From the NCBI GenBank assembly GCA_013215505.1, contig JABSQZ010000005.1, positions 1 to 62,231 on the forward strand: a stretch of DNA of 62,231 nt, given 5' to 3'. A program made the translations under genes and the position numbers. This DNA comes from Oceanospirillaceae bacterium (GTDB taxonomy: Bacteria > Pseudomonadota > Gammaproteobacteria > Pseudomonadales > Balneatricaceae). Positions 7,130 to 62,020 of this stretch are shown piece after piece. The notes below the pieces were generated by a model. It saw only the letters and a program-made list of their open reading frames with translations. It searched no databases and was not told where the DNA came from. Every line of letters starts with the position of its first letter. The first letter of the stretch is position 1.

Positions 7130-9259
7130 TTAGTCGTTGTTATTGAAGTCGTAATCCATCACTTCATTGGGCACTTGCAAATAATAGCCCTGTATCATGC
7201 ACACTCCTGATTTCCACAACATGCTCATGACTTTGGGGTCTTCTACGTGCGGCACAATGGTGATTTTGTCGCGACTCTTTAAGTTAGACAGCAACTTTTT
7301 AAAACTGGGATCAATCAGTTCCTGATCGGAAAAGTCGCGGATGTAGCTGCTATCGAATTTAATGTAGTCGGGATCAAGGGTCTTCAAAATAATTTCTGAA
7401 TTATTGGTGCTGCCATAGTGTTTCAAGCAGACCAGGCAATTGAGTTTTCTGAGCCCGGCGACAAAATAGCTTGCCTGAGTAAGCTTATTTGCACACTCGG
7501 TTTCACTCAGCTGAATGACTATGTGATCGGCATTAATTCGACTTTGTCGCAACAGATCGGCAACCCAGATCAGCAGGTCCTGCCGCTCCCAGACAGTATC
7601 AGTAACACTGATAAATAGTTTTAGCTGGTTGTGTTGGGCCAGTTGTTGCTTATATTGGCTGATACTTTCAGACAGTACCCATCTATCCATATGTTCGTTC
7701 AAATCTGCATGGTCAATACTGGTGAGAAACCGGGCAGGTGGAATGTTTTCATTGTCCGCCCCTATCATTCGCAACAGGACTTCGTAATGCTGTTGCTCGC
7801 TGCTAAATGCCAGGGGCACTAACGGTTGGAACAGCAAGCGTAATTTCTGCTGAGTGATCGCCTCGCGAGCCTGTTCTATTGATTGCAGTTCACGGCGGTT
7901 AAAACCATTAATTTCTTGGCTGTATAGTGTAACTGCCGGCAGATCCGGGGTTAGTTTTTGTGCTTGTCGAATAGCCTTTTGCCCCCGTTCGATCACCCCC
8001 AGGGTGCTGGGGCTGGTATCGGATAAAGTCACGATACCAATGGCGCACTGCAAATATATCGTCTGCTCTGCTACTTTAGTGGGCTGATGGCTGATACGCA
8101 GATAGAGCTCTTCGGCAATTTGTTGAGTTTTATGGGTATTCGGGTCGAGGTAGATAACAGCAAACAGACTGTCTGCTATTCTCGCTTTTAGGTGAGTTTT
8201 ACTGAAATCTTGATTTAATAATTCAGCGGTATCCCTGATCAGGGAACGACTGGCATTATTCCCATACTGGCTGCGGGTGCTGCGAACGTTAAGTATGTCA
8301 ATCAGCAGTAGATGGCAGTCATTACCGCCACGTTGGGCCAGGCGTAAAATACTCTCTAGACTGTCGGTAAAGTATTGCAAGTTGTACAGGCCAGTAATAG
8401 CGTCTATGTCGGCGAATTTACTCTCTTGTGAATACAATTTAGCGCTATCTATTGCGATTTCGATACATTCATCATTGTTGAACTGGACCAGTTGTAGTTC
8501 TAAGTGGGCGGCAAAATTACTTTTATCTGCACGCTGAGCTAGCAATTGATAGGGGAGTTTGCTCTGGCCGCTATCGATGAATGTTGCAAATAGTTTGCTC
8601 ATGCCCTTGCGCTCCTGATCGGCGACTAACATTTGCATCGACTTGTTAAGCAGTAACTCAGCAGTTTGATAGCCAAATAGTTCACAGAAAGCATGGTTTA
8701 CATAGACTATTTTTTGGTTTCGGACAAAGCTAATGGCCAGTGCCGAATTATCCATTAAGTGCTGGCAGCGTTTTTGGCTTTCTGAAAGCTGCAGCTGTAA
8801 TTGCCGGGATCTTCTGCGGCTCTCTAAATGGCTATATTCGCGTTGGATATGTAAAAGCATAAGATCATACTGATCTGTAGCCAGAACCGCTTGCATGTTG
8901 TTTTTAAGACCCTCTGCGATATCTTCTTCTGTGGGGTGTTCAACTAGCTGCAATACCGGTATATCTTTCTCTAAATGTGTTAGCTCTTTTGTCAGTGCAA
9001 AAGGATCAAAACTTCCCTGCTGTGACTTGCAGAGAATTAAATCCCAGCTGCGCTCTCTCAAGGCACTGACCACTTCTTGGACGCTGTTAGTGGACTGTCC
9101 TCTGGGAGAAAGCTGATGAGCGCGCAAATATGAAATAATTGAGCTGGATTCTGCACTGCTAAATTCGACAAATAAAATATAGATGTTTTTTTGCGCTAAC
9201 CCGGAGCACTGCATACTCTGGCGACGCTCGGCAGGGGGGCTTAATATCAGGTCGGGCAT
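7130..9259 (-). CDS. fimX: FimX-like degenerate GGDEF/EAL protein (REC-PAS-GGDEF-EAL)
   Basis: The 709-residue protein has four parts: a receiver-like domain (about 25-140), PAS (about 160-275), GGDEF-like (about 285-445) and EAL-like (about 465-700). The receiver has Lys78 where the phospho-acceptor Asp belongs. The GGDEF site reads ADSLF (362-366) and the EAL motif reads EVL (493-495), so neither cyclase nor phosphodiesterase activity is expected. This matches Pseudomonas FimX, a c-di-GMP-binding effector that controls type IV pilus assembly at the cell pole. A good AAGGAG ribosome site precedes the ATG. No pilus genes are nearby. Orthology to FimX rests on domain order and the EVL motif. 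Confidence 0.78.
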   Translation of the reverse strand: MPDLILSPPAERRQSMQCSGLAQKNIYILFVEFSSAESSSIISYLRAHQLSPRGQSTNSVQEVVSALRERSWDLILCKSQQGSFDPFALTKELTHLEKDIPVLQLVEHPTEEDIAEGLKNNMQAVLATDQYDLMLLHIQREYSHLESRRRSRQLQLQLSESQKRCQHLMDNSALAISFVRNQKIVYVNHAFCELFGYQTAELLLNKSMQMLVADQERKGMSKLFATFIDSGQSKLPYQLLAQRADKSNFAAHLELQLVQFNNDECIEIAIDSAKLYSQESKFADIDAITGLYNLQYFTDSLESILRLAQRGGNDCHLLLIDILNVRSTRSQYGNNASRSLIRDTAELLNQDFSKTHLKARIADSLFAVIYLDPNTHKTQQIAEELYLRISHQPTKVAEQTIYLQCAIGIVTLSDTSPSTLGVIERGQKAIRQAQKLTPDLPAVTLYSQEINGFNRRELQSIEQAREAITQQKLRLLFQPLVPLAFSSEQQHYEVLLRMIGADNENIPPARFLTSIDHADLNEHMDRWVLSESISQYKQQLAQHNQLKLFISVTDTVWERQDLLIWVADLLRQSRINADHIVIQLSETECANKLTQASYFVAGLRKLNCLVCLKHYGSTNNSEIILKTLDPDYIKFDSSYIRDFSDQELIDPSFKKLLSNLKSRDKITIVPHVEDPKVMSMLWKSGVCMIQGYYLQVPNEVMDYDFNNND

Positions 9260-28364: not shown

Positions 28365-29675
28365 ATGTCAAAAAAAGCACTTTTATGGTTGCTGTTGCTG
28401 TTGTTTGCTTGCACAGTCGGTGGTGGCTATTGGCTATATCAATACCAAAGTAAAAGCTTTGTCACTGATCTGATAGAGCAATTCGCCCCCGTGGCGAGAA
28501 TCAATGTTGCCGATATAGAAGTCGATTTAAAAGGCAATATCCTCATCAAAGGTCTTAAAATAGCCCCAATTGGCTATCAGGATGTTGTGCAAATTGAACA
28601 AGTCAATATAGTCAGTGGCAGTGCTTTGGCCCTGCTTAGCGCCGATACTTGGTTCAAAGGCGCGATGCCTAGCAGTTTAAGGCTGCAGTTTTCTAGTTTG
28701 ATTTTCAGTATTGATTCTGACTTTATGCGCACAGATGTGCAGCATGTCAATGCTCCTGTCAGTGAAAAAACCTTGTGGGGGTTAGCTTGTACCGATGAAG
28801 TTAATTTTACTTCAATAGTGACTAACTTGGGGTTGCGAAGAGTACTAGTGGATGTGCAAGTGAATATTGAATCCGTCAATGGTGGGCGGGTATTAAAGAG
28901 CAATATAGCGGTAAGTGCACCGGGACTGGTCAAAGGTTTGTTTGAGTTCGAATTGAATAGCAAGGCGCCACTGAGCTTTTACGAGCGCAGTGTGCTCAGT
29001 AAAACTGAAATTAGCCGGGCACTGCTGAGTATCACTGATGCAGGCTTTAATTTAAAGCGTTTAAAGTATTGTGCCAAAAAGGAGGAAGTCGCGGAAGCGG
29101 ATTACCCGAACTATTTTATGGCCAGTGTGCAGTTAAAAATGATTCAGGAGCAGCAGACTGATAGTCAGGAGTTGGAGAGCAGTGTGTTGGCATTTTTAAA
29201 GCCCAGAGCCAGTGTAGTATTGCGCTTGCAACCTAAAGGCAGGCTGTTGTTATCGCAAGTGCTAGGCAGCGATTTTCAGCTGTTAGCAAGAGATGACTTG
29301 TTATTGAGTGTCAACGCCAAAAAAGCCTCGACCCGTTATTTACCGTTGTTGAACGGGAGGATTATTGAACAGCAAGTCATTGAAGCTGAATCTCCGGTGG
29401 ACGAAGTTGAGGTGTTGGCAAGCCTTAAAGAGCAAGTGTCCAGCAAGAGGGAGATGCAGAAAAGCAGACCTAAATACCAAAGTGTTGAACTCGCCAATTT
29501 AACTGAGTTTAAAGGCCGGCAAATTAGATTGAGAACTTTGCTGGGCAAAGAAATAGATGGGGTGCTGCTGGAAGTGAAAGCTAAAAAAATTATTATGCGT
29601 CGCCGGGTTGAACAAGGGTTAGTAACCTATCCAGTGCTCAAGGAAAATATCGCCAGTATTAAAGTGTTCAGGTGA
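28365..29675 (+). CDS. Membrane-anchored protein of unknown function with Sm-like C-terminus
   Basis: No named family is recognised. The 436-residue protein has one N-terminal membrane helix (about 5-24) and then a long, beta-rich extracytoplasmic-looking region; its opening part (EVDLKGNILIKGLKI) is reminiscent of AsmA/TamB-type strands. The last 60 or so residues (about 372-436, FKGRQIRLRTLLGKEIDGVLLEV and KKIIMRRRVEQG) have the strand pattern of an Sm/LSm-like barrel. A protein at this place between rplS and xerD is, as I recall, conserved in Pseudomonas. Its stop is followed at once by the xerD ATG, so the two are translated together. The domain readings are inference. Confidence 0.6.
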   Translation: MSKKALLWLLLLLFACTVGGGYWLYQYQSKSFVTDLIEQFAPVARINVADIEVDLKGNILIKGLKIAPIGYQDVVQIEQVNIVSGSALALLSADTWFKGAMPSSLRLQFSSLIFSIDSDFMRTDVQHVNAPVSEKTLWGLACTDEVNFTSIVTNLGLRRVLVDVQVNIESVNGGRVLKSNIAVSAPGLVKGLFEFELNSKAPLSFYERSVLSKTEISRALLSITDAGFNLKRLKYCAKKEEVAEADYPNYFMASVQLKMIQEQQTDSQELESSVLAFLKPRASVVLRLQPKGRLLLSQVLGSDFQLLARDDLLLSVNAKKASTRYLPLLNGRIIEQQVIEAESPVDEVEVLASLKEQVSSKREMQKSRPKYQSVELANLTEFKGRQIRLRTLLGKEIDGVLLEVKAKKIIMRRRVEQGLVTYPVLKENIASIKVFR

Positions 29676-30548
29676 ATGTCCAGAGCTGATGAAAGTAACA
29701 GAGCGCAGATAGCGACTGAAGATGCAGGGTTAATTGATAGCTATATAACACATATCGCCAAGACCAGGCAGCTGGTCGAAAATAGTTTGTTGGCGTATCG
29801 CCATGATTTGTCTAAATTTTCGGTTTGGCTGTTGTCGAAGCAGCTAGCATTGCTGCAAGTGGATAGTTTGACGATGCAGCAATATTTTATCTGGCGAACC
29901 ACCGAAGGCTATAATGCCAGTTCCAGCGCCAGGATGTTATCTTGCCTAAAAGGCTTCTTCCGCTATCTGCAATTATTCAACATTGTCAGCGCAGACCCCT
30001 GTTTTAATTTAAAGCCACCTAAAGTACTAGCGGTGAATGCCCCCTCTCTGACAGAGATTGAAGTGGAGGCGATGTTGCAGGCGCCCGACCTGATAACAGC
30101 CATTGGCCTGCGTGACAAAGCCATGCTGGAATGTTTATATGCGAGCGGCTTGAATGTCTCCGAATTGATATCGCTAAAGTTGCAGCAGCTGGATATAGCA
30201 GCAGGAACAGTGCAAGTGTCGGGAAGCAGGCAGCGATTAGTTCCTCTGGGTGAGGAAGCTTGTTACTGGCTGAAAAAATATCTGCAGCAAACTAGAATGC
30301 AGATGCTGTCTTCGGCTGACTCTGATCAGCTTTTTGTCAGTACCCGGGGCACTAAAATGACCCGACAGGCGTTTTGGTATCGGGTAAAGTATTATGCCCT
30401 GAAAGTTTCAGTGACCAGCAAGATATCACCGCAGGGGTTACGCAGGGCTTTTGCCGAGCACTTATTGGCTAATGGGGCCAAGTTGCAGCATGTGCAGCAG
30501 ATGTTAGGGCATACTGATCTGTCAGCTACCCAATCCTATATTCGCTGA
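29676..30548 (+). CDS. xerD: XerD-like tyrosine recombinase lacking key catalytic residues
   Basis: By sequence and neighbours this is XerD, the partner of XerC that resolves chromosome dimers at dif. The N-terminal core-binding domain (about 15-110) is normal. In the catalytic domain the first Arg is Asn160 (SGLNVSEL against SGLRVSEL), the beta-hairpin Lys region GKGNKER is shortened to GSRQR, and the box II His is Gln253 (SPQGLRRAF against SPHxLRHxF). Arg256, His279 and Tyr288 remain. The protein stops two residues after the Tyr, losing the C-terminal helix of about 20 residues that contacts the partner subunit in XerC/XerD. The frame is open for 290 codons, so it may still be expressed. 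It directly follows the upstream gene and precedes dsbC. Confidence 0.8.
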   Translation: MSRADESNRAQIATEDAGLIDSYITHIAKTRQLVENSLLAYRHDLSKFSVWLLSKQLALLQVDSLTMQQYFIWRTTEGYNASSSARMLSCLKGFFRYLQLFNIVSADPCFNLKPPKVLAVNAPSLTEIEVEAMLQAPDLITAIGLRDKAMLECLYASGLNVSELISLKLQQLDIAAGTVQVSGSRQRLVPLGEEACYWLKKYLQQTRMQMLSSADSDQLFVSTRGTKMTRQAFWYRVKYYALKVSVTSKISPQGLRRAFAEHLLANGAKLQHVQQMLGHTDLSATQSYIR

Positions 30549-30645: not shown

Positions 30646-31413
30646 ATGTCAGATAAAGGTTTAAGCTTCACTGGTCAGTCTCAGCTGTTGAGTAAGTTAT
30701 TGTTAGCGCTTAGTTTAAGCATTAGTTTTTCCACCGCTGCAGTGGCTAGTGTAGAGCAAGAGATTACTGAGAAAATAAAATTAATTAATGAGAACATACA
30801 AATAGAGAGTGTGGTTGTCTCGCCTTGGCCGGGAATGTACGAAGTTACACTGATTTCTGGAGAAGTGATTTTTTCTGACAAAAATGCACAGTACATGGTG
30901 GTTGGTCAAATGTTTCAGTTGAGCCGGGAAAATGGCTTTGTAAATCTATCTGAACAAAAAAATCAACTGAAAGTAAAAGCCGTATTGGCGGCAGTTCCGG
31001 CTTCTGAGCAGATAATATATCCAGCTGCAGGCGCAGAAAAAGCAGTGATCACAGTGTTTACTGATATCGATTGTTACTACTGTCAGAAACTGCATAAGAA
31101 TATCCCCAAGTTACAAGCCAGCGGCGTCACAATCAAGTATATGGCCTTCCCCAGAGCGGGTGTTGGTTCACCCGTCGCTCGGCAAATGGAGTCAATCTGG
31201 TGCTCTGATGATCCTGCAGCTGCACTGACAATAGCAAAATCTAAACGTGAGGTTCCCAAGGTCGAATGTGATAATCCAGTCACCGCGCAATTCCAATTGG
31301 GACACAAGCTGGGCGTCAATGCGACCCCCACCATATTCACTGAGCAGGGAGTGAAAATTGCCGGCTTTGCCTCTGTCGAGAACTTGCTGGCGGATTTGGG
31401 TGTCAAAGAGTAA
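30646..31413 (+). CDS. dsbC: Thiol:disulfide isomerase DsbC
   Basis: Periplasmic V-shaped dimer that repairs wrong disulfides. The protein is 255 residues, with a signal peptide (about 1-35, ending AAVAS), an N-terminal dimer domain and a C-terminal thioredoxin domain. The active site is C143-Y-Y-C146, where E. coli has CGYC. A second, structural Cys pair is Cys186 and Cys208. The cis-proline is in NATPTI. It follows xerD by 97 bases, the order known from Pseudomonas. A GC hairpin CCCGC/GCGGG lies about 25 bases after the stop without a T-run. Confidence 0.93.
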   Translation: MSDKGLSFTGQSQLLSKLLLALSLSISFSTAAVASVEQEITEKIKLINENIQIESVVVSPWPGMYEVTLISGEVIFSDKNAQYMVVGQMFQLSRENGFVNLSEQKNQLKVKAVLAAVPASEQIIYPAAGAEKAVITVFTDIDCYYCQKLHKNIPKLQASGVTIKYMAFPRAGVGSPVARQMESIWCSDDPAAALTIAKSKREVPKVECDNPVTAQFQLGHKLGVNATPTIFTEQGVKIAGFASVENLLADLGVKE

Positions 31414-31814: not shown

Positions 31815-33110
31815 TTGAAACCGGTAAAAGTTGGAATATGTGGTTTAGGTACTGTTGGTAGCGGTACGTTCAATGTACTAACACGCAATGCGCATGAGAT
31901 TAGCCGTCGTGTCGGTTGTGACATTGTTATTGAGCAAATTGGCGCCCGTCGCGATAATCCAAACTGCGATACTACAACCACCAACATAACCCGTGATATT
32001 TTCGAAGTCGCAGTCAATCCAGAAGTCGATATTGTCGTTGAGTTAATTGGTGGTTATGAGGTTGCCCTGAAACTAGTATTACTGGCCATTGAAAATGGCA
32101 AGCACGTAGTGACAGCTAATAAAGCATTAATAGCAGTGCACGGTAATGAAATTTTCGCCGCGGCTAAAAAACATAATGTAGTGGTCGCTTTTGAATCGGC
32201 AGTTGCCGGTGGCATTCCTATTATCAAAGCGCTCCGAGAGGGGCTGGCAGCGAACAAAATAAATGGTCTTGCCGGTATCATCAATGGTACGGGTAATTTT
32301 ATCTTATCGGAAATGCAGGAAAAGGGCCGTGATTTCAGCGACGTATTAACTGAAGCTCAGGCGCTCGGCTATGCCGAAGCCGACCCGACCTTTGATGTTG
32401 AGGGAATAGATGCAGCGCATAAATTAACCATAATGGCAGCTATTGCCTACGGCGTGCCGCTGCAATTTGATAAGGCCTATACAGAGGGAATCAGCAATAT
32501 TACTGCTGAAGACGTGAAGTTTGCCTCTGAGCTGGGTTATCGAATTAAGCATTTAGGTATAGCCAGAAGAACCGAACAGGGCATCGAACTGCGAGTACAT
32601 CCAACCATGATTCCCAAGCAAAAGTTACTCGCCAATGTTAACGGGGTAATGAATGCGGTATTGGTAGATGCGGATGCCGTAGGTCAGACTCTGCACTATG
32701 GAGCGGGCGCAGGAGACGAAGCTACTGCCTCAGCAGTGATAGCGGATATCCTGGATATTGCGCGTACTATCGACGTCGACCCAAGCAGTAAAGTTGCGCC
32801 TTTAGGCTTTCAGAGTGAGCAGCTTTCGGACCTGCCGATATTAGCGATGGATCAGACCGAGACGGGTTATTATCTACGCCTTAAAGCGGCTGAAAAACCC
32901 GGAGTGCTGGCTGATGTGACTAAAATCTTAGGTGACTGTGGGATCAATATCGAAGCGATAGTGCAGAAAGAGTCCGATCAGGACTTTGTGCCAGTAATTT
33001 TGTTAACGCAGCGGGTGATTGAGCAGAAGATGAACCAGGCGATCTCTGAAATAGAGGCACTGGACAGCATTTTAGGTGCAGTGACTCGTATTCGTGTAGA
33101 ACACTTATAA
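31815..33110 (+). CDS. hom: Homoserine dehydrogenase
   Basis: NAD(P)H-dependent reduction of aspartate semialdehyde to homoserine, a branch point to threonine and methionine. The 431-residue protein has the Rossmann loop GLGTVGSGT near residue 9, the catalytic region with INGTGNFILSEM and YAEADPTFDVEGIDA, and a C-terminal ACT domain (about 350-431, YYLRLKAAEKPGVLADV) for threonine feedback. The start is TTG with GAGGAA upstream; the family N-terminus KPVKVGICGLGTVG agrees. It is followed 31 bases later by thrC. Confidence 0.97.
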   Translation: MKPVKVGICGLGTVGSGTFNVLTRNAHEISRRVGCDIVIEQIGARRDNPNCDTTTTNITRDIFEVAVNPEVDIVVELIGGYEVALKLVLLAIENGKHVVTANKALIAVHGNEIFAAAKKHNVVVAFESAVAGGIPIIKALREGLAANKINGLAGIINGTGNFILSEMQEKGRDFSDVLTEAQALGYAEADPTFDVEGIDAAHKLTIMAAIAYGVPLQFDKAYTEGISNITAEDVKFASELGYRIKHLGIARRTEQGIELRVHPTMIPKQKLLANVNGVMNAVLVDADAVGQTLHYGAGAGDEATASAVIADILDIARTIDVDPSSKVAPLGFQSEQLSDLPILAMDQTETGYYLRLKAAEKPGVLADVTKILGDCGINIEAIVQKESDQDFVPVILLTQRVIEQKMNQAISEIEALDSILGAVTRIRVEHL

Positions 33111-58489: not shown

Positions 58490-59488
58490 ATGATAGAAAT
58501 AAAAGACCTTACTAATCAGCGGACTCGGCCCAAAGGTAAGCGCCTTGAGCAGGGGGTAAAACTACGTGGCGCCGATAAAATGGCGCGTATCCCGATTAGA
58601 ATTCTGCCCACAGAAAAGGCTGATATGCTGAAGAAGCCACCTTGGTTAAGAGTACGTATGGGCAACAATGCTGAGGTCAAAAGAATTAAGGCGAAGCTCC
58701 GCGAGCACAAGCTCTCCTCGGTCTGTGAAGAGGCGAGCTGTCCGAATATTGGCGAGTGTTTTAGTAAAGGTACTGCTACTTTCATGATTATGGGTGATAT
58801 TTGTACCAGGCGCTGCCCTTTTTGCGATGTGGCGCACGGTAGACCAAACCCACTGAATGAAAATGAGCCCCGGGAATTGGCGGAAGCCATTACCGAAATG
58901 GGGTTAAAATATGTGGTGATCACTTCTGTTGATCGCGATGACTTGCGCGATGGTGGTGCTCAGCATATTGCCAATTGTATTATTGAAACGCGCAAGCGCT
59001 CTAAAACTTTGCAAATCGAAACACTAGTACCGGATTTTCGCGGCCGCATGGATATTGCTATAGAGCTGTTGTCTAAGTATCCCCCTGATGTGTTCAATCA
59101 CAACATGGAGACAGTGGAGCGCTTGTTTAAAAAAGTAAATCCAGGTTCCAGCTACGCGGGATCGCTGGAACTATTGCGCCGCTACAAAGAGGCGATGCCG
59201 CATATCCGTACTAAATCGGGGATCATCGTTGGCGTTGGAGAGACTAATGAAGAAGTTGTGCAAGTGTTAAAGGATCTGCGTGTGCACAATGTAAATATGG
59301 TCACTTTGGGGCAATATTTACAGCCGAGCAGAGACCATTTACCCGTGGATAGGTTTGTGACCCCCGCGGAGTTTGATGAGTTTGCCCGCATCGCCAAAGA
59401 GCTGGGCTTTGACCATGTCGCCAGTGGGCCTTTAGTGCGCTCGTCTTACCATGCTGATCTACAGGCATCAGGGGTTTCGATCGGCTAA
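58490..59488 (+). CDS. lipA: Lipoyl synthase LipA
   Basis: Radical-SAM enzyme that inserts two sulfurs into protein-bound octanoate. The auxiliary cluster motif [12 protein letters not shown] and the SAM cluster motif CTRRCPFC are both intact, and the C-terminal Ser ligand is in RSSYHAD. ATG at 58490 gives 332 residues; TTG at 58478, overlapping the lipB stop, is an alternative. It finishes the ybeD-lipB-lipA operon. Confidence 0.96.
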
Positions 59489-59492
59489 TTTA

Positions 59493-59524
59493 GCAACCCC
59501 AGCTCTAACAAGAGCTAGGGTTGC
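59493..59524. terminator. Strong hairpin between convergent lipA and psuG
   Basis: GCAACCC-C-AGCTCT, loop AACA, AGAGCT-A-GGGTTGC form a 13-bp stem with one C-A mismatch, starting four bases after the lipA stop and 20 bases after the psuG stop. Neither strand has a T-run. It probably serves both genes as a shared mRNA end. Confidence 0.55.
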
Positions 59525-59544
59525 GTTCAGTCAAACAACAGAGT

Positions 59545-60477
59545 TTACGATTGTTGCAGCTGACTCATTTCTATTGCGATCTCTGCGCCCAGCGCCGCAT
59601 TGTTATACACCAGCTCGATATTCGCCTGCAGGCTTTTTCCCGCAGTTACTTCTGCGATCCGCGCCAGTAAAAATGGTGTACTTTTTTTGCCACTGACTCC
59701 CTGCTGCGCCATATCCAGCAGTGCTTGATCAATGGTCTTGCCAATCATTGTGGCGTCCATCGAGTGCTGTTGTGGAATTGCATTGGTTACCACAACTCCT
59801 CCTTTTAGTCCCAGCTGCCATTTGGTGATTAAGCTCTCGGCTATTTCTTTTGCACTATCAAGCTTATAATCAACCTTGAAACCACTTTCTCTGGTGTAAA
59901 ATGCCGGCATTTCATCACTCTGAAAGCCTATCGTAGGCACACCATAGGTCTCCAGATATTCAAGGGTTAGGCCTATGTCTAAAATGGACTTTACTCCTGC
60001 GCAGACGACCGCCACTGAGGTTGTGGCTAGCTCCTGGAGATCTGCGGATATATCCATAGTGGTTTCAGCGCCGCGGTGTACCCCCCCTATGCCGCCGGTG
60101 GCAAATACCTTAATGCCCGCCATCTGCGCCAAAATCATGGTCGAGGCGACGGTAGTGGCGCCGTCTTTTTTGCCTGCGACAATAAATGGGATGTCGCGAC
60201 GGCTGGTTTTATTGACGCTTTGACCCGCTTTACCTAGATATTCAATTTGCTGATGGCTTAAGCCAACCACTAGCTCTCCCTGTAAAATGGCGATAGTTGC
60301 CGGAATGGCGCCTTTGTCGCGAATGATCTGCTCGACATTCAGTGCAGTTTCGACATTTTTAGGGTAGGGCATGCCGTGGGATATGATCGTTGATTCCAAA
60401 GCGACGACCGGTTTGCCAGATGCTATGGCAGCTTTAACTTCGTCACTGACCTGTAAGTGTTTCTCTAGTGCTAGCAT
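59545..60477 (-). CDS. psuG: Pseudouridine-5'-phosphate glycosidase
   Basis: Breaks the C-C bond of pseudouridine 5'-phosphate to give uracil and ribose 5-phosphate. The 310-residue protein carries VALESTIISHGMPYP near residue 25, the lysine region SRRDIPFI...GATTVASTM, ATGGIGGVHRGAE, and CAGVKSILDIG with the imine Lys. It follows psuK on the same strand after 135 bases, so the two likely form the two-step pathway. No pseudouridine transporter gene is seen in the window. Confidence 0.94.
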   Translation of the reverse strand: MLALEKHLQVSDEVKAAIASGKPVVALESTIISHGMPYPKNVETALNVEQIIRDKGAIPATIAILQGELVVGLSHQQIEYLGKAGQSVNKTSRRDIPFIVAGKKDGATTVASTMILAQMAGIKVFATGGIGGVHRGAETTMDISADLQELATTSVAVVCAGVKSILDIGLTLEYLETYGVPTIGFQSDEMPAFYTRESGFKVDYKLDSAKEIAESLITKWQLGLKGGVVVTNAIPQQHSMDATMIGKTIDQALLDMAQQGVSGKKSTPFLLARIAEVTAGKSLQANIELVYNNAALGAEIAIEMSQLQQS

Positions 60478-60612
60478 GTTGTGTCCTTGCCTGATATGTA
60501 GGTACGGCCATAGTGGCCAAATTTAGATGAATCTTGGAGTCGCCAGCCGAGCATTGAATGAGGCTCGGTGGCGATTGCATAGGTTTGGAAAAGGTTCTCT
60601 GATTAACTATCT

Positions 60613-61710
60613 CTAATCTTTAAGGTTTGCCTGATCAAGTAGTTTTTCAATTCTGGGAACTGATAATTCCGGGTTGATGGTTGCTTTGGTCGCCAGAGCG
60701 CAGTTAGCCGCTGCAAGGGCGAAATAAGCGCTTTTCTGGATATCTATATCTAACATCTGGCAATGGCATAGAGCAGCCATCATAGCGTCTCCTGCGCCGT
60801 TGCTGTTGGTGATATTCAGTGCCGGGAGCTTTACTGATTTTTGCTGCTGCCCGTCGGAGTAAAAGAGTCCCTGTTCACCTAAGCTAATATAGATACGTTG
60901 TACTCCACGGTTATGGAACCAGCTGGCGAGTTCAGGGAGTTGCCGAGGATGGTTTATTTTCATACCTGAAATCTGTTCGGCTTCTAAAAGGTTGGGCTTT
61001 AAGCTGTGCACATGCTGCAGAAATGGGGTGATTTTATCTGCCTTGGCAACGGAAACAGTATCAACAAAGAACGTAGTGGCAGCGAGGTGGGTGAAAAGGA
61101 ATTGCATCAACTGCACACTAATATTGGTATCTAGTACTATCAAGCTCGCCTGCTTTAACAGTGGCAGTTGTTTTTGTAACAGCTCTGGCGTTAATTTTTC
61201 TAGAATTTTCATATCGGCTATCGCCAGTTGCATTTCTCCATCGCTATCGATTATCGATAGATAACAAGAGGTGCTCTGTCCCGCAATACAGAGGACTTGC
61301 GAGGTGTCGACGCCGGCACTGTGACTTAGCTCTATCAGTTGTCGACCCTGACTGTCATCACCGACCGCGGCAATCAAGTAGCACTTATTGCCAAGTCTGG
61401 CGATATTTTCAGCAATATTGCGGGCGACTCCGCCGGGGCTGCTGGTAACAGATCCTGGTGCAGAGCTATTGGCGCTGATTTGTGTATCTGGCTTGCCCAG
61501 TATATCCATGTTGGCGCCGCCAATAGCGACACAGAATTTTTCTGCTGCGACCACATAGCCGCGACCTTCGATAATACCTTTAGATATTAAGTTGGTAATA
61601 TGGCTGGCGATGGCTGAGCGGCTAATGCCGATAATTTCTGCCAATTGAGACTGGGAAATTAGCGGGTTGTTTTTAATCGCATTAATGATTTGTTGTTCGC
61701 GCTTGGTCAT
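60613..61710 (-). CDS. psuK: Pseudouridine kinase with N-terminal winged-helix domain
   Basis: A PfkB-family kinase that phosphorylates pseudouridine for PsuG. Residues about 1-55 form a helix-turn-helix (NPLISQSQLAEIIGISRSAIASHI), and the kinase follows with AIGGANMDILG, the glycine pair in SPGGVARNIAEN, and NSNGAGDAMMAAL with the catalytic Asp. The ATG at 61710 begins TKREQQIINAIK; an in-frame TTG 36 bases upstream would add residues without support. The fusion suggests the protein may also bind DNA and control its own operon. Sugar specificity rests on the psuG neighbour. Confidence 0.85.
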   Translation of the reverse strand: MTKREQQIINAIKNNPLISQSQLAEIIGISRSAIASHITNLISKGIIEGRGYVVAAEKFCVAIGGANMDILGKPDTQISANSSAPGSVTSSPGGVARNIAENIARLGNKCYLIAAVGDDSQGRQLIELSHSAGVDTSQVLCIAGQSTSCYLSIIDSDGEMQLAIADMKILEKLTPELLQKQLPLLKQASLIVLDTNISVQLMQFLFTHLAATTFFVDTVSVAKADKITPFLQHVHSLKPNLLEAEQISGMKINHPRQLPELASWFHNRGVQRIYISLGEQGLFYSDGQQQKSVKLPALNITNSNGAGDAMMAALCHCQMLDIDIQKSAYFALAAANCALATKATINPELSVPRIEKLLDQANLKD

Positions 61711-62020
61711 TGTCTGGACTTTTGTTGGTTGTTGGACGAAAGTCAATATTAGATTGGAGCCGCTCCCAGAGCAAGGCTTAAATTGGTCAATCTTTGCAGC
61801 GTTGTAGAGTCAATAGTGGTTTTTATAGCGGTAGCCAACGGGGCTTAATAGTCATCAACAACTGTCGATAATTTATACAAAAAAGCTCTCGCAGAGGGTA
61901 GATAATCTAGTTTTGTTGGTTATTTGTACGATTTTAGGGGTGAAATCAAAATAAATTAACTTTTGTGAATTATTCTGTTGACTCCTGCTGATAAATCGAT
62001 AAAATCTGCGCCCATCTTCT
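61711..62020. other. Divergent region between psuK and tRNA-Ser
   Basis: No gene was found in these 310 bases. The upstream part should hold the psuK promoter, which I could not place. The last 45 bases hold the tRNA promoter. Confidence 0.5.
61978..62005 (+). promoter_or_regulatory. Promoter of tRNA-Ser/tRNA-Asn
   Basis: TTGACT, a 16-base spacer and TAAAAT are followed by the GC-rich discriminator CTGCGCCC, as in stringently controlled stable-RNA promoters. It ends 15 bases before the mature tRNA-Ser. Confidence 0.68.

Follow-up and report, generated by a model that had tools for sequence, protein, structure and literature searches.

In a genus of Oceanospirillaceae bacteria, the catalysis of XerCD has probably been replaced by a chromid-type single recombinase, with a catalytically dead XerC, a catalytically dead XerD and their dif site kept for binding. 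XerCD/dif is usually treated as near-universal for circular chromosomes. The gene at the centre of this work is xerD, an open reading frame (ORF) at positions 29676-30548 of a 62,231-nt stretch of contig JABSQZ010000005.1 (assembly GCA_013215505.1; hereafter, the window). Genomes are designated by G numbers and contigs by C numbers: G000 is the genome of the window (5.73 Mb, 98.2% complete), and the genus set (n = 7) comprises G000 and six relatives, G001 to G006, of which G003 and G006 are assemblies of Rs2, a symbiont of the bone-eating worm Osedax (MABF01000243 and ASZI01000172; 70-72% identity to the window xerD product).

XerD and XerC have lost catalytic residues throughout the genus

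The window ORF runs on the forward strand from ATG to TGA, encoding 290 amino acids (aa) with no internal stop, as an earlier note on this DNA had read it. Judged by similarity and by its locus (rplS-dsbC-hom context), it is a xerD orthologue: it matches the XerD model TIGR02225 at 277.3 bits over model positions 2-275 of 290, without reaching the curated cut-off of 329.6, and scores 277 bits with the XerD model versus 212 with the XerC model. From the sequences, we take the gene order to be trmD, rplS, a gene for a 436-aa protein, xerD, dsbC, hom and thrC; the rplS-side gene, dsbC and hom are the neighbours that the earlier note considered typical of xerD. An alignment with 25 family XerDs shows that the protein lacks the first catalytic Arg (replaced by Asn160), the first His (replaced by Gln253) and the Lys, whose hairpin carries a two-residue gap; Arg256, His279 of the LGH motif and Tyr288 are retained, and the chain ends two residues past the Tyr. 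The alignment thus bears out each of the lesions listed in the earlier note. The predicted fold (mean predicted local distance difference test score, pLDDT, 84.7; predicted template modelling score, pTM, 0.57) is still XerD-like, with XerD 1a0p as the top match in the PDB (40% identity, probability 1.00, root-mean-square deviation 13.5 over both domains).

The same pattern is found across the genus set, where xerD is open in all seven genomes. The position of the first Arg reads N, S, K, N, N, K and N from G000 to G006, with Arg in none; the catalytic His is Gln and the C-terminal tail is lost in every genome, and the Lys of the hairpin is present in the alignment only in G001. The second Arg, the LGH His and the Tyr are retained in all seven. 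Among 112 near-invariant positions of family XerDs, 39 are kept in all seven species, including W54, R89, S92, T234-R235-Q236, F238-W239 and R241, and 25 are lost in all seven, with the first Arg, the catalytic His and the C-terminal tail among them. Because this pattern recurs in all seven genomes, the damage is due neither to chance nor to sequencing error, and a local misassembly at xerD is likewise ruled out; the earlier note had allowed that resequencing might restore the Arg, Lys, His and tail, and the losses instead recur in every genome.

The partner gene xerC, at its dapF-side locus (G000:C2:41797-42651), is also open in all seven genomes. Compared with 19 reference sequences (L289 was excluded for a wrong reading frame), XerC has lost the Tyr and the first catalytic His in all seven and retains the first Arg only in G004; the G000 protein scores 148 bits with TIGR02224, not reaching the cut-off of 335.15. 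The XerCs of G001, G002 and G005 have lost parts of the C-terminal domain. The HPRA C-terminal tail of XerC is kept in five of the seven (G002 and G005 being without it), whereas the XerD tail is lost in all; the XerCD complex may therefore still make one of its two tail contacts. The XerC damage, which the earlier note did not see, is as severe as that of XerD in the same genome, and on their sequences both proteins look catalytically dead across the genus.

Both genes are nevertheless under purifying selection. The ratio of non-synonymous to synonymous substitution rates (dN/dS), whose calculation the earlier note had proposed, is far below 1, at 0.15-0.18 for xerD and 0.11-0.18 for xerC in the three unsaturated pairs (among G000, G003 and G006); the pairs beyond these are saturated, with one further xerC pair at dS 3.3 giving a ratio of 0.20. 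The outcome that would have undone the earlier reading, an unconstrained pseudogene beside a normal xerD elsewhere, did not emerge: both genes are constrained and no normal xerD was found.

A profile search of G000, run as the earlier note had suggested, gave no match above the XerD or XerC cut-off anywhere in the genome. The next-best matches to the Xer models (G000:C1:749873-750652 and G000:C10:150016-150798, ~150 bits each), which we take to be integrases of IS91-associated type, are both interrupted by a stop codon. An additional XerC or XerD in G000 is therefore rejected, and the suggestion that a second XerD does the job is not supported. A third integrase, presumably of the same type, is a fragment (G000:C1:766644-766868); IS91-like transposase pieces adjoin this fragment and the copy on C10.

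dif is retained

We located dif, another target proposed in the earlier note, in all seven genus genomes, which rules out its loss. The search pattern was one that we assumed, and the reversed pattern served as control, here as for the palindrome described below. The site matches the pattern without mismatch in G000, G003, G004 and G006; in G001, G002 and G005 it shows three mismatches and an altered XerC arm, and is accepted because of its place and shared arms. It lies at a fadL-side locus in all seven genomes, and also beside antiporter or nuo genes in G000, G002, G003 and G005. The XerD arm, TTATGTTAAAT, is intact in six genomes with one change in G001, and the 6-bp centre drifts in sequence at constant length. 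The features of a classical dif are all there (28 bp, XerC arm, 6-bp centre, XerD arm, proximity to the terminus). Elsewhere, dif was found with 0-1 mismatch in all 41 other family genomes searched; 6 of 77 genomes gave no match (G052, G058, G062, G063, G070 and G073), and their XerD matches are at most 123 bits. In G003, two contig ends (C288:1-415 and C357:26454-26867) share ~415 bp around dif at 97% identity but differ in the dif centre, TAATTA versus TTATTA, which probably reflects a strain mixture in the assembly.

A conserved tyrosine recombinase and its palindromic site

The XerD and XerC models also found a tyrosine recombinase of 426 aa (G000:C6:43889-45166), 33 kb from dif. It is present in six of the seven genus genomes, with one match in each, and the other five copies are 80-94% identical to that of G000. 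Its catalytic pentad is invariant in 23 of 23 aligned relatives, the catalytic Tyr being Tyr 405 in a 422-aa reading. It scores far under the cut-offs for XerC, XerD, XerS and archaeal XerA (33.7 bits against 267 for the XerS model NF003462, hence outside XerS), and no PDB chain matches it at E up to 1. The locus is syntenic in G000, G003 and G006, and dN/dS is 0.02-0.04 in pairs of these genomes. A phage or integrative mobilizable element (IMEX) origin of the G000 copy was considered and rejected, no phage genes being recognised by eye within 10 kb around it.

The same six genomes share a 28-bp palindrome of 11-6-11 layout, a symmetric dif-like site near the terminus. It is identical at all 28 positions, centre included, with 30-bp flanks averaging ~42% identity, and the reversed-pattern control gave no match. 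The palindrome lies 61-157 bp upstream of the recombinase start in G001, G002 and G004, and in G000 it is 15 kb from the gene, between the gene and dif. In nine XerD-less genomes, we scanned 0.7 kb upstream and 0.4 kb downstream of the homologous gene and found a palindrome-type site 52-70 bp upstream in G062 (perfect), G063 and G070 (two mismatches each). Overall, the arms in relatives are perfect in some, and carry one to three mismatches or were not found in others. Second palindrome-type sites with three mismatches occur at G000:C1:228699-228726 (L193) and G002:C5:63567-63594 (L192). The one in G002 adjoins an accessory-looking run of genes, with a transposase-like gene ~8 kb on (by eye), an arrangement that could be the trace of an element that used the recombinase of its host.

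KOPS polarity switches at or near the recombinase site

The gamma domain of FtsK, which the earlier note had also listed for checking, was found in G000 and in all 30 further genomes checked for it, some of them XerD-less, so its loss is ruled out. The ftsK gamma sequence lies 8-24 kb from the recombinase in three XerD-less genomes (G052:C1:1733863, G063:C95:164306 and G245:C1:1714188) and far from it in others, e.g. G107, G134 and G329.

As FtsK orienting polar sequence (KOPS) we used GGGNAGGG, the motif given in PMC13342612. On contig C6 of G000, the best split of KOPS polarity falls at 58674-62012, an interval that contains the palindrome; 19 of 20 motifs agree with the palindrome as switch point versus 17 of 20 with dif, and G003 has both of the deciding motifs at orthologous positions. 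On shorter contigs of the genus, agreement is 4/4 for both sites in G002, 2/2 on G004:C13, 1/1 on G001:C96 and 2/3 on G006:C86. The switch also lies at or near the recombinase in three XerD-less genomes: in G063, 8/8 motifs agree at the best split and 7/8 at the gene; in G070, 4/4 agree, all on one side; in G052, 16/16 agree, with the gene 7-16 kb off the switch and an imperfect palindrome-type site inside the switch interval. In the XerD-positive G012, G030 and G039, the motif separates dif from the gene by one occurrence or not at all. The looser motif GGGCAGG, counted alongside on our own assumption, agrees with the palindrome at 22 of 25 occurrences in G000 and with dif at 19, and favours dif in G012, G030 and G039.

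Most XerD-less genomes of the order carry the recombinase

We surveyed 293 genomes of the order with completeness ≥90%, scoring XerD as absent when the best TIGR02225 E-value was weaker than 1e-80 and the recombinase as present at E up to 1e-90. XerD is absent from 81 genomes, 76 of which carry the recombinase, and present in 212, of which 21 carry it, G000 among them (Fisher p ~4e-44, calculated over genomes that are non-independent). Counted by genus, the recombinase is found in 31 of 34 XerD-less genera, and in 14 families every XerD-less member carries it; a full-pentad enzyme is thus conserved where XerCD is absent. Close to the threshold, five of the 81 genomes scored as XerD-absent still match at 1e-57 to 1e-76 (G062, G150, G231, G298 and G301), and six scored as XerD-present sit at 1e-81 to 1e-88 (G000, G054, G123, G126, G192 and G306). 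The survey scored XerD; the absence of XerC is taken from separate searches with the XerC model and in relatives. Genus g39 contains both states: G070, G155, G197 and G270 have the recombinase only, G105, G178, G216, G234, G252, G287 and G319 have XerD but gave no match to the recombinase, and in G304 the two occur together; genus g31 shows a similar pattern. The 18 single-contig genomes that match strongly have one copy each, and in 16 of them the recombinase gene lies at 0.37-0.61 of the record (an interval chosen after looking, on rounded record lengths), as expected for the terminus if records begin near the origin.

Within the family, XerD, dif and a recombinase of the same superfamily occur together in 20 of the 41 other genomes. 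In 18 of these 20 the recombinase lies within 20 kb of dif, and in the other two on another contig; a palindrome is 296-1591 bp from dif in 11 of the 15 of these genomes whose loci were examined. Several recombinase matches per genome, up to six, were found in families f29 and f16 (G135, G218, G289, G306 and G231), and some of these pieces contain stops, which suggests mobile copies or extra replicons.

Relatives of the recombinase on chromids and large plasmids

Homologues of the recombinase occur on 567 plasmid records. The nearest in the plasmid collection, 49-53% identical, are on 12 Pseudoalteromonas replicons that measure 0.68-1.3 Mb. In the tree, the two sampled Pseudoalteromonas chromid copies group with the genus (support 100/99), and an Alteromonas plasmid copy groups with the XerD-less G063, G068 and G070 (100/100). 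The homologues carried by the Pseudoalteromonas sp. CF6-2 chromid and by the Alteromonas stellipolaris plasmid each have a palindrome-type site next to them (one mismatch and perfect, respectively). The module of the genus resembles those of chromids and large plasmids, and such a replicon was probably its source. The simple reading would be that large secondary replicons supplied the recombinase on more than one occasion.

Two chromids carry both kinds of site. On that of Pseudoalteromonas sp. NC201 (L195:7907-7934 and 7976-8003), a classical dif and an imperfect palindrome-type site are 41 bp apart; on that of CF6-2 (L194:7218-7245 and 7943-7970), dif and the palindrome-type site are ~0.7 kb apart, and filamentous-phage-like genes adjoin dif. 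Prophages at or near chromid dif are described in PMC7858055.

Weighing the explanations

Chromosome dimers of the genus are most likely resolved by the 426-aa recombinase at the 28-bp palindrome, to which FtsK would be steered by KOPS. We infer that the recombinase cuts the palindrome, resolving dimers, and that the dead XerC and XerD still bind dif; for the resolution step we rely on the anatomy of the module and on the precedent of XerL (PMC9765430). A recombinase dimer would occupy both arms of the palindrome, and FtsK, moving along KOPS, would pair two palindromes at the septum, where dimers would be resolved. Once the module was in place, selection on XerCD chemistry would have lapsed. 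The persistence of xerC, xerD and the dif arms suggests a role for which binding is enough, which might be a non-catalytic XerC/XerD-dif complex at the terminus, e.g. a landmark for SMC unloading or a complex related to FtsK. PMC13342612 cites unloading of SMC by XerD in B. subtilis, and on another replicon it describes a pattern suggestive of SMC unloading at dif. FtsK contact is the weaker candidate. The more specific version of this proposal, in which the dead proteins bind the intact dif as a heterodimer for a catalysis-free job at the terminus while the chromid-derived recombinase resolves dimers, seems to us evenly poised between right and wrong.

The interpretation offered in the earlier note stands in part. 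Replacement of XerD by a single-recombinase system, one of its three options, is well supported by the recombinase, the palindrome, KOPS and the order survey, and its idea of a non-cutting subunit survives to the extent that XerD is probably a kept non-cutter. XerD cannot, however, be the non-cutting member of a working XerCD pair, as the Tyr nucleophile of XerC is gone from all seven genomes; the option of a second XerD is not supported.

Several observations weigh against replacement by the recombinase. The preference of KOPS for the palindrome over dif in G000 turns on two motifs, one motif on G006:C86 is oppositely oriented, counts of GGGCAGG are mixed (1/3 on G004:C13 and 2/10 at the gene in G070), and the cumulative GC-skew maximum of C6, at ~85 kb, is nearer to dif (78 kb) than to the palindrome (60 kb). 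The draft G005 (93% complete) has neither the recombinase nor the palindrome, and in six of the nine XerD-less genomes scanned (G052, G058, G065, G068, G073 and G076) no palindrome-type site was found near the gene. Perfect 11-6-11 repeats are not rare, two occurring in 187.5 kb of C6, so that the evidence lies in the conservation of the palindrome and not in its symmetry alone. Three mismatches to dif, the level seen in G001, G002 and G005, were also reached in some genomes by the reversed-pattern control. In the order, XerD-less genomes without the recombinase exist, namely G095, G147, G247 and G265 of family f8 and G150 of f14; the best recombinase match of the four f8 genomes is ~116 bits or less, and they may harbour a further replacement system. 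Nor is the presence of the recombinase enough to remove XerCD, since 20 of the 41 other family genomes combine XerD and dif with a recombinase of this superfamily. As for why XerD is kept, a Glu pair, whose position in our alignment we assumed, is retained in G000, G003 and G006; G004 has it in part, and G001, G002 and G005 have lost it, so that FtsK contact is not a general reason for retention. This pair, E183/E184, should touch FtsK gamma (PMC5052618).

Slow decay, with xerC and xerD as functionless leftovers of the takeover, would account for dN values some five times as high as the recombinase shows in those pairs, for the many recombinase-bearing lineages without XerD, and for the missing parts of the XerC C-terminal domain in G001, G002 and G005. 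We nonetheless regard it as unlikely, as none of the 14 genes is interrupted or much shortened in species that have mostly reached synonymous saturation, dN/dS lies well under 1, and the His-to-Gln change of XerD is shared, as is the conserved XerD arm of dif. A mixed complex, in which dead XerC and XerD act as non-cutting subunits and the third recombinase cuts dif, would fit the persistence of dif and of both proteins and a highly conserved recombinase lying ~33 kb from dif in G000, or less than 20 kb from it in 18 of the 20 XerD-positive family genomes that have a recombinase of this superfamily. Yet the genus recombinase has an invariant, fully symmetric site of its own with arms unlike those of dif, and nine XerD-less relatives carry the recombinase with no dif match under three mismatches, so that we hold this arrangement to be very unlikely.

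The recombinase could also be an unrelated integrase or mobile-element enzyme, leaving the genus without dimer resolution. The 567 plasmid records, the up to six matches in f29 genomes and the three-mismatch second sites in G000 and G002, the latter beside an island-like gene run, would suit such an enzyme; the single match per genus genome, the dN/dS of 0.02-0.04, the synteny in G000, G003 and G006, the position at 0.37-0.61 of the record in 16 of 18 single-contig genomes (interval post hoc) and the KOPS switch at or near the gene in three XerD-less genomes would not, and make this account highly improbable. Finally, the Tyr, second Arg and LGH His retained by XerD in all seven genomes, together with the kept dif, might be taken to mean that XerC and XerD still work through a rearranged active site. 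This is barely credible: XerD is without the first Arg and His in all seven genomes and without the Lys in six, and strand exchange that needs both proteins looks impossible because XerC has no Tyr in any of the seven.

Comparison with known systems

Single-recombinase Xer systems are already known, and the nearest to the one proposed here is XerL/dif of the Legionellales, a single tyrosine recombinase with a site of perfect dyad symmetry (PMC9765430). The two are alike in protein length (catalytic Tyr 387 there versus Tyr 405 here in the 422-aa reading), in a dif-like site of ~28-29 bp that lies in the terminus region and has arms of perfect symmetry, and in having no working XerCD. They differ in that XerL belongs to another order and in that XerC and XerD, dead, and dif, kept, remain here. 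The gene and its site are 44-85 bp apart in several relatives and 15 kb in G000, versus >400 kb in L. pneumophila (same source). XerS/difSL and XerH/difH likewise combine one recombinase gene with its own nearby dif-like site, which is not perfectly symmetric (PMC9765430), unlike the genus site. Compared with XerCD/dif of E. coli and of the family, the genus has the same genes, loci, dif layout and FtsK gamma, whereas essential catalytic residues are missing from both proteins, the C-terminal helix of XerD is lost, and KOPS favour another site.

Xer pseudoenzymes are a known kind, and streptococci keep a catalytically impaired XerD-like protein alongside another single recombinase. The streptococcal protein is a lone divergent homologue, whereas here XerC and XerD orthologues are both found at their home loci, with dif. 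In the openly licensed PMC literature, in the portions open to search, we found no report of a retained dead XerC and XerD with dif beside a replacement, nor any that links this recombinase family to dimer resolution in the order or names it as the substitute in XerD-less members. A 2009 survey listed Legionellales, Colwellia psychrerythraea and Saccharophagus degradans as large-genome gammaproteobacteria without XerCD/dif and left open what substitutes for it (PMC2731167), a question that XerL answered for the Legionellales in 2022 (PMC9765430). The recombinase module is a candidate substitute in many genera of the order and could be tested in cultivable relatives. If the proposal holds, the genus would be a living intermediate stage of the replacement, a process that seems to have run to completion in members of 14 other families, and its dead but constrained XerC and XerD would represent a natural separation of binding from cutting and a route to the non-recombination roles of XerCD-dif.

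Features of the xerD locus and the recombinase site

Table 1. Positions of the features described; those without a genome code are positions in the window.
Feature	Position	Strand	Basis or remark
xerD orthologue, catalytically dead XerD (pseudo-XerD), 290 aa	29676..30548	+	ORF, profile match, alignment, predicted fold
Asn160 codon, replacing the first catalytic Arg	30153..30155	+	alignment column R163
Site of the missing Lys beta-hairpin, SGSRQR, 2-residue gap	30219..30236	+	alignment
Gln253 codon, replacing the catalytic His	30432..30434	+	alignment column H258
Arg256 codon, second catalytic Arg, kept 7/7	30441..30443	+	alignment
His279 codon (LGH motif), kept 7/7	30510..30512	+	alignment
Tyr288, two residues and stop; C-terminal helix lost (7/7)	30537..30548	+	alignment
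Palindrome, 28 bp, 11-6-11, ATGTCCAATAC-TTAAGA-GTATTGGACAT	G000:C6:60062-60089		perfect 11-bp arms, 6-bp centre
436-aa protein of unknown function, upstream neighbour of xerD	28365..29675	+	stop codon directly abuts the xerD start
dsbC-like gene, usual neighbour of xerD	30646..31413	+	name presumed from the sequence
hom (homoserine dehydrogenase), usual neighbour of xerD	31815..33110	+	name presumed from the sequence
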